Under the pieces are notes generated by a model that worked only from the letters and a program-made list of their open reading frames with translations, did no database searches and had not been told where the DNA came from. 64,000 bases of DNA from a bacterium (GTDB lineage Bacteria > UBA8248): contig JAJDYR010000037.1 in NCBI GenBank assembly GCA_022825065.1, positions 429,742-493,741 of the forward strand, given 5' to 3'. Both the position numbers and the translations under genes were made by a program. This document shows positions 51,717 to 54,499 of the stretch, piece after piece. Positions within the stretch are counted from its first letter, which is position 1, and every line of letters begins with the position of its first letter.

Positions 51717-53435
51717 TTGAGAGTCAAACTGGCTAAGACGGCTGGTTTTTGCTGGGGAGTGGAAAGAGCGCTCGATATAGCCTTGGACACGGTTAACGAT
51801 GCATCCAGCGAAGTTTTGACGCATGGGCCACTAATTCATAACCCGCAAACGGTGGAATTGCTGGAAGATAAAAGTGTTTTTGTGTCTGATCCTCAGGAGA
51901 CGCCAAGTAGTACGAGCTTGGTTGTCATTCGGGCGCATGGTATTTCTCCGCAGGTTCGCGACCGTTTAAGAAGTTCGGGAGCAGGCATTCGAGATGCAAC
52001 ATGCCCGCTGGTCGCCAAGGTTCACGGGGTTATTAGAAAACATTCCCGTATGGGCGCTTTCACGGTGATCATCGGTGAGGAAGGACATCCGGAGGTGGAT
52101 GGTCACAAGGGCTACGCTGAGGCTGGCAGCCATCTGATAACCTGCATGGAAGATGTGGCCGAACTCCCGGAGATTGGTGAACGCCCCGTCGTGGTGGTCG
52201 CACAGACGACAATCAATATGCGGGAATGGAAAGATGTCGAAGAAGCTATTTTGAGGAAATACCCCCAGGCCCAGATGTTTAATACGATATGTGATGCAAC
52301 TGAGGTTCGTCAGGAAGAGGTAAAGAAACTAGCACCCGATGTTGACCTGATGGTCGTTGTAGGTGGTCGCAACAGCGGCAATACGAATCGCTTGGTAGAA
52401 GTGGCGAAAGAGGGGGGAGCGGATTCGATTCTCATTGAAACTGAAGATGAGATAAATGAGGAATTTTTACAACAATACAAGAATATCGCTGTTACAGCGG
52501 GTGCATCTACACCGGATTGGATGATTAGGCGTGTTGTGAATCGAATAGAGGCGATTCCAGATCCGAATCCAAATTTCGTTGACAAGATATTTGATGTCGT
52601 CAAGATGCTGTCGAGAGCAAATGTTCTTCTTTTTCTGTCTGCGCTATTGGGTAGTACCGCCATTACGGTCTTAGGTGGTTTCCCCTTTTCGATGAAACTT
52701 GCCATAACTGCAGGTCTTTTTCTTTTCGCTGCTCATACGATAAATCGTTGTGTTAGTTATGAAGCAGATAGGTACAATGAGCCTAATCGCGCTCAGTTTT
52801 ATGAAAGGCACAAGACCACATTATTATCCTTTGCTGTAGTTGCTGCTTTTATATCGATCCTGTTCGGTGTCAGTGTCTCCTATTTGACCGGGGGCATTAT
52901 GATCGTTGGATTGATTTGGGCTATTTTCTGCAGCCTTAAGCTCGAACCTCGGGCCCTCGTTAGCAGGGTAATGAATTTCCCGACCCTGAAAATTTTGGTT
53001 CTTGCAACGGGATGGACCTTTGGCATGGCATTTTTACCTGCATTGGCGAATTCACAGTTGATTTCCGCTGGTTGGGGAGTATCTATATTCGTCGCCTTCG
53101 GTTTGATTTTCTTCAAGACTGGCTTGATGGAATTGAGAGATATTCAGGGCGACCGAATCGTGGGCAAAAGAACCTTGCCGATCGTTCTGGGCAAAGAGCA
53201 GACAGAAGCACTTTTAGGAGTAATTTGTGCTGCATTGGCTGTAGTTCTTGTTAGTGCTTCTATCAATGGGTGGGTGGCCCCATTGTTTGGTTATGCGATG
53301 CTCATTCCGGTTATTTATGCAGGTGCATGTCTCTACTGGTATACAAAAAAGATATTGGGACATAGCGGACTCATGGAAGCAGCCACCGATCAAATATTTA
53401 TAATTGCTGGTGTTTTAGTCTTATTAGTAGTCTAG
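51717..53435 (+). CDS. ispH: IspH-UbiA fusion protein (HMBPP reductase plus prenyltransferase domain)
   Basis: 572 residues. Residues 1-285 are a complete IspH (4-hydroxy-3-methylbut-2-enyl diphosphate reductase, last step of the MEP pathway): the three Fe-S Cys sit at 12, 96 and 192 (GFCWGV, DATCPLV, TICDATEVR), with the AHG and GGRNSGNTNRL motifs. Residues about 290-572 are a membrane domain with seven to nine helices and UbiA-type sequence: the second aspartate motif ELRDIQGDRIVGKRTLP is clear, while the first is degenerate (NRCVSYEADRYNEPNR instead of ND..D...D). Start is TTG with AGGAGG at 7 bases. No stop or frameshift lies between domains. UbiA enzymes attach prenyl chains to aromatic rings. 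Confidence 0.9.
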   Translation: MRVKLAKTAGFCWGVERALDIALDTVNDASSEVLTHGPLIHNPQTVELLEDKSVFVSDPQETPSSTSLVVIRAHGISPQVRDRLRSSGAGIRDATCPLVAKVHGVIRKHSRMGAFTVIIGEEGHPEVDGHKGYAEAGSHLITCMEDVAELPEIGERPVVVVAQTTINMREWKDVEEAILRKYPQAQMFNTICDATEVRQEEVKKLAPDVDLMVVVGGRNSGNTNRLVEVAKEGGADSILIETEDEINEEFLQQYKNIAVTAGASTPDWMIRRVVNRIEAIPDPNPNFVDKIFDVVKMLSRANVLLFLSALLGSTAITVLGGFPFSMKLAITAGLFLFAAHTINRCVSYEADRYNEPNRAQFYERHKTTLLSFAVVAAFISILFGVSVSYLTGGIMIVGLIWAIFCSLKLEPRALVSRVMNFPTLKILVLATGWTFGMAFLPALANSQLISAGWGVSIFVAFGLIFFKTGLMELRDIQGDRIVGKRTLPIVLGKEQTEALLGVICAALAVVLVSASINGWVAPLFGYAMLIPVIYAGACLYWYTKKILGHSGLMEAATDQIFIIAGVLVLLVV

Positions 53436-53515: not shown

Positions 53516-53836
53516 TTAGATTCCTCTCGCGGCTCGTTTTGAGGCCTTGAGAGGGTTCAGTTTTTTCTCTAGCGGCGCTTCAAAATCTAATTTAATGTGT
53601 GTCGCGAGAGGGCATCTGCCCCGCTCCCAGCGGTTTTCCGGATTAGGGAATTTTGCGCAATACTTTCCTTTTGGAAACTCTATGATGTGCTCGCATGCTT
53701 TCTCATCATCACCCGAAAGGCATTCCTCCACGACAGGGAAGCAGGAACTTCCATTGTACGAACATGTATTTTGGCCATTAGAGCCTTTCGATGCAAAATG
53801 ACATTCTACAGGCGCTTCTAAAACCGTACACTCCAT
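53516..53836 (-). CDS. PxxKW-family cysteine-rich protein
   Basis: 106 residues. Cysteine spacing (MECTVLEAPVECHF, NTCSYNGSSCFPVVEECL, CEHIIEFPKGKYCAKFPNPENRW, GRCPLATHIK) and the C-terminal KLNPLKASKRAARG match this small family, described mainly from deltaproteobacteria. The name-giving PxxKW appears here as PENRW, a Lys to Arg change. No signal peptide; the Cys could bind metal or a cluster, but function is unknown in the family. Start ATG with GGGGGA at 7 bases; five residues of the track rejected. Confidence 0.8.
   Translation of the reverse strand: MECTVLEAPVECHFASKGSNGQNTCSYNGSSCFPVVEECLSGDDEKACEHIIEFPKGKYCAKFPNPENRWERGRCPLATHIKLDFEAPLEKKLNPLKASKRAARGI

Positions 53837-54499
<663 letters not shown>

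Follow-up and report, generated by a model that had tools for sequence, protein, structure and literature searches.

Fusions of IspH to a UbiA-type domain were described by Rao et al. (2015, Chem Sci 6:6813; PMC4746011), who reported 47 such proteins with a UbiA part of the PT_UbiA_5 type. Their hosts were primarily Desulfobacterales, together with Desulfobacca and Thermodesulfatator, and all were stated to be sulfate-reducing anaerobes. The fusions carried two DXXXD repeats, were predicted to be membrane bound and occurred in genomes with a separate UbiA/MenA; the authors put forward a Rosetta-stone proposal in which IPP/DMAPP is supplied locally, and active full-length protein was not obtained (PMC4746011). 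A full-text literature search for IspH–UbiA hybrids returned nothing beyond this paper and a citation of it. The initial annotation of the locus studied here had taken the combination for an undescribed class, a view overtaken by that publication: the fusion is real, well conserved and belongs to a class already described.

The catalytic site of standalone UbiA enzymes provides the reference for the second half of the protein. In AfUbiA, N68, D72, D198 and D202 hold Mg2+ and diphosphate, D76 may work via water and Y139 is positioned where the reaction takes place (PMC4106721). Binding of GPP to AfUbiA was abolished by changing N68 or D72 and weakened by D198A and D202A, and EcMenA lost function when the equivalents of N68, D72, D198, D202 or Y139 were changed (PMC4106721).

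The window, by which we mean the whole 64,000-nucleotide stretch analysed, contains the fusion gene at positions 51717..53435 on the forward strand. The gene is a single open frame of 572 codons plus stop, with no interruption and a TTG start that is kept in relatives and preceded immediately by a stop codon in the window. Six further genomes of the genus encode the same protein with identical architecture (572 aa from the common start; 80–96% identity in the UbiA part), and the fusion is found in further genera of the window's family too. We considered a frameshift or an assembly chimera at the junction; since six same-genus assemblies carry the matching 572-aa fusion, an assembly artefact is excluded, as is a chance origin of the observation. 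Named records label the host's lineage Nitrospinota or Candidatus Tectomicrobia. Separately, a contig labelled Gammaproteobacteria (L034, JAPOVV010000048.1) bears the tail of the fusion with 96% identity to the window and is probably misbinned.

The IspH (LytB) domain spans residues 1–280 (51717..52556, forward strand), as delimited by the Pfam LYTB and TIGR00216 profiles, phmmer matches to solved IspH structures (from residue 1 or 4 to 280) and invariant alignment columns. LYTB matches residues 3–278 (E 8.6e-90, 301 bits), covering profile positions 1–267 of 267, and the NCBIfam profile TIGR00216 (ispH_lytB) scores 302 bits against a cut-off of 187.85 as a full-length IspH over residues 3–280. 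In the alignment of fused proteins, the cluster cysteines C12, C96 and C192 and the substrate residues H41, H74, H124 and E126 are invariant. C12 and C96 share their numbering with the E. coli enzyme, and C192 lies five residues before E. coli C197. The AlphaFold2 model matches the IspH structures 3szu, 3ke8 and 3f7t with a TMt of ~0.81. A search of the window's genome for a second IspH found none, and in 29 of 29 fused genomes checked no IspH besides the fusion is present. The IspH part is thus predicted, from its intact cluster and substrate residues and its sole-copy status, to be an ordinary active HMBPP reductase. Two of the initial annotation's readings, an uninterrupted frame and a complete IspH with all three cluster cysteines, are upheld by the six same-genus genomes and the full-length profile matches, respectively.

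The UbiA-fold membrane domain occupies residues 287–571 (52575..53429, forward strand). Pfam UbiA matches residues 307–539 (E 8.3e-16, 58.5 bits against a cut-off of 34.2), and the model of this region is nearly all helix. The full-length AlphaFold2 model (pLDDT 74.6, pTM 0.54) matches the UbiA homologue 4od4 with a TMt of 0.71; at this pTM, the placement of IspH relative to the membrane domain is unreliable. When folded alone, the UbiA part reached a pLDDT of 75.4 and a pTM of 0.77, and Foldseek again matched it to 4od4, 4od5 and 4tq3, as well as to the UBIAD1 chain of the HMGCR–UBIAD1 complex (8djk_B). A UbiA-domain sequence profile searched against solved structures gave only weak matches to chlorophyll synthase. 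The C-terminal UbiA-type domain proposed from the bare sequence is confirmed by the Pfam score and the match to 4od4, and from this fold we infer that the protein resides at the membrane.

The distribution was surveyed by searching 386 genomes, 18 from the window's family and 368 from others, with a profile built from fused UbiA domains. Outside the family, fusions were present in 26 of the 368 genomes, in 22 family-level groups; the surveyed frames measured 558–637 aa, with IspH upstream of UbiA. In an extra set of 17 genomes around one fusion-bearing genome, most carried the fusion. Standalone members of the fused UbiA subfamily amounted, across the 386 genomes, to three weak matches (42–47 bits) at most, with a fused-protein profile that favours fusions. 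Among 30 fused genomes, dsrA was above cut-off in only 5 and COX1 in 12; the fusion is therefore not limited to sulfate-reducing anaerobes. The window's genome belongs to the COX1-bearing group (513 bits, just upstream of ctaB, encoding haem O synthase), and its best dsrA match, at 22 bits, is below cut-off.

Both halves of the fusion form coherent groups in trees built from a limited sample with midpoint roots. In the IspH-domain tree (71 domains), all 45 fused domains fall on one side of a branch with support of 91/99, recovered in 93% of bootstrap trees; in the UbiA-domain tree (65 domains), all 43 fused domains fall on one side of a branch with support of 100/100. The sampled fusions, those from five dsrA-bearing genomes included, cluster together; the sequences of Rao et al. 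are not in the trees by name. These two groupings are best explained by a single ancient fusion, one event being the simplest reading of these sequences. Two members of the window's family, L113 (G009) and L120 (G010), have an unfused IspH of a distinct type instead of the fusion. In the tree, it groups with another IspH type, and the fusion appears to have been replaced in these genomes by the other IspH rather than to have lost its tail.

Alignment of the 43 fused UbiA domains, the window's and 42 others, with 22 standalone UbiAs drawn from the same genome set revealed an altered active site in the window. The first Asp motif, canonically NDxxDxxxD, is degenerate (NRCVSYEAD, residues 343–351, 52743..52769, forward strand), with Ser347 at the place of AfUbiA D72; in every aligned member of the window's family, this place holds Ser or Gly. 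Cys405 (52929..52931, forward strand) aligns with the conserved Tyr (Y139 in AfUbiA); other genera of the family have Tyr or Phe here. The second Asp motif, DIQGD, is intact (residues 475–479, 53139..53153, forward strand). The window's domain thereby keeps N343, D351, D475 and D479.

Across the fused class, N68 together with D/E72 is present in 15 of 43 domains, compared with 21 of 22 standalone UbiAs, and D76 in 11 of 43 compared with 22 of 22. The Y139 counts, 31 of 43 against 22 of 22, come from a less certain part of an alignment that is firm at both Asp motifs. The D202 position, the final Asp of the second motif, is invariant (43/43). All six canonical residues are kept in four fused domains (L086, L087, L091 and L094), which may be true prenyltransferases. 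The ancestral UbiA partner probably worked as an ordinary Mg2+-dependent prenyltransferase, and its site then eroded in several directions. In one phylum, that of G020, the first Asp motif of L043 and L046–L050 is swapped for the strongly conserved YExREWQGLALMDPSKVQF, and related groups have YNLVDWQGLALVDPSK in this region; conserved replacement of this kind suggests a changed function over decay.

These residues bear directly on the Rosetta-stone channel of Rao et al., an idea shared by the initial annotation, in which the UbiA part would be catalytically active in prenyl transfer, using an atypical donor or acceptor, and would be fed IPP/DMAPP at the membrane by IspH. In its favour, isoprenoid metabolism is common to the two domains, more than 20 family-level lineages have retained this old fusion, motif 2 is well conserved and all six catalytic positions are intact in four relatives. 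In the window's genus, however, D72 and Y139 are gone, and motif 1 is changed in most fused domains. With Ser347 and Cys405 in these places, channelling into prenyl transfer is doubtful in this lineage and the earlier proposal finds no support there, though an altered metal site might accommodate a Ser in the D72 position. UbiA enzymes, moreover, usually take longer prenyl diphosphates, not the products of IspH.

Other genes also weigh against a channel. The separate ubiA/menA that the initial annotation had suggested looking for is represented in the window's genome by two further UbiA-family genes, one for haem O synthase and one for an MqnP/UbiA-like enzyme. The latter adjoins a gene for a TIGR03701 menaquinone decarboxylase, and an MqnC-like protein that scores under the curated cut-off is encoded elsewhere. 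Haem and quinone prenylation, the known prenylation jobs, are so covered, and at least one further UbiA-family gene is present in all fused genomes checked. No acceptor is indicated by any conserved neighbour. Comparison of the window with three distant fusion loci revealed no shared neighbours, and synteny was confined to the family level (P-II and glnD downstream); we accordingly rejected assigning a function from gene neighbourhood. Downstream of the fusion and before the P-II gene, a small DUF6811 (PF20657) protein is encoded on the reverse strand (53516–53851). Taken together, we regard the channel as possible but doubtful.

As the known prenylation needs are met by other genes, we favour an IspH tethered to the membrane, with a UbiA fold that acts as an anchor or binds a ligand but carries out no canonical transfer, and give this reading, over the three alternatives considered here, a probability of roughly 55%. 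The cell's sole IspH would be tethered to the cytoplasmic membrane via the C-terminal UbiA-fold domain. It would descend from one old fusion to a once ordinary Mg2+-dependent prenyltransferase, and selection would have retained the UbiA part after its canonical diphosphate/metal site had been partly lost. The domain would now serve as a membrane anchor or as an isoprenoid- or quinone-binding module that places or tunes IspH. Canonical transferase activity has, we infer from the replaced residues, been lost in the window's UbiA domain. Retention of N343, D351, D475 and D479, and the invariance of the last motif-2 Asp across the fused family, argue against a pure anchor.

Selection on the two parts was compared within the genus. 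The median dN/dS is 0.076 for the UbiA part and 0.023 for the IspH part, values that are rough because pairwise dS is close to saturation in most pairs. The UbiA part is under purifying selection and is not freely decaying. This makes it highly improbable that a functionless UbiA domain has simply been carried along as a passenger after a chance fusion. The partial loss of catalytic residues and the faster evolution of the UbiA part relative to the IspH part would fit such a history; a dN/dS of about 0.08, a frame intact in all lineages examined, long persistence and the invariant motif-2 Asp contradict it. Synonymous divergence from the closest relative of the window's genome (L006) differs between the two parts, at 0.58 for IspH and 0.19 for UbiA, which hints at recombination within the gene.

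In a further alternative, the UbiA fold would act as a sensor, binding a prenyl diphosphate or other isoprenoid without transferring it and adjusting IspH activity or stability, much as UBIAD1 acts on HMG-CoA reductase. A partly dismantled active site that is nonetheless conserved and under purifying selection would suit this role, and the UbiA-part model matches UBIAD1 in its complex with HMGCR. Human UBIAD1 binding blocks HMGCR degradation (PMC9314443), which supplies a precedent for control of this kind. The argument is one of analogy, however, and AfUbiA no longer bound GPP once D72 was changed (PMC4106721), leaving a sensor unlikely in our view. A broader form of the idea, which we hold to be quite improbable, would make the fusion a bacterial counterpart of UBIAD1–HMGCR, in which a prenyltransferase fold with a dismantled donor site, linked covalently to the last enzyme of the MEP pathway, would sense membrane isoprenoids and exert feedback on IspH in more than 20 bacterial lineages.

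Because the fusion is the sole IspH in many distant bacteria, the role of its UbiA domain is bound to an essential step. Relative to Rao et al., the new elements are the wider distribution, a probable single origin, sole-copy status and an eroded donor site. Given the distribution, the apparent single origin and the erosion of the transferase site in most lineages, the working hypothesis shifts from substrate channelling towards anchoring or sensing, of which we prefer the tethered IspH.

The fusions of Rao et al. resemble the window's protein in domain order, the three cysteines, the membrane UbiA domain and the presence of a separate UbiA/MenA in the genome. Their hosts were stated to be sulfate-reducing anaerobes, whereas the window's genome lacks dsrA above cut-off and has a cytochrome oxidase, and its host thus does not resemble such an organism; they carry two DXXXD repeats, whereas the window has DIQGD only, the first repeat being missing (Ser347). 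Both are traits reported for the class, which is itself defined by its architecture. The IspH–RPS1 fusion of Clostridia and others (NF000907) likewise joins a C-terminal partner to IspH in a single chain, but that partner is ribosomal protein S1, and the window scores 286 bits against the NF000907 cut-off of 624, through its IspH part only. With the standalone UbiAs (AfUbiA, ApUbiA, MenA, MqnP and CtaB), the window's protein has the fold and the second Asp motif in common; it differs from them in the replaced D72 and Y139 positions, and the fused domains form a tree group of their own.
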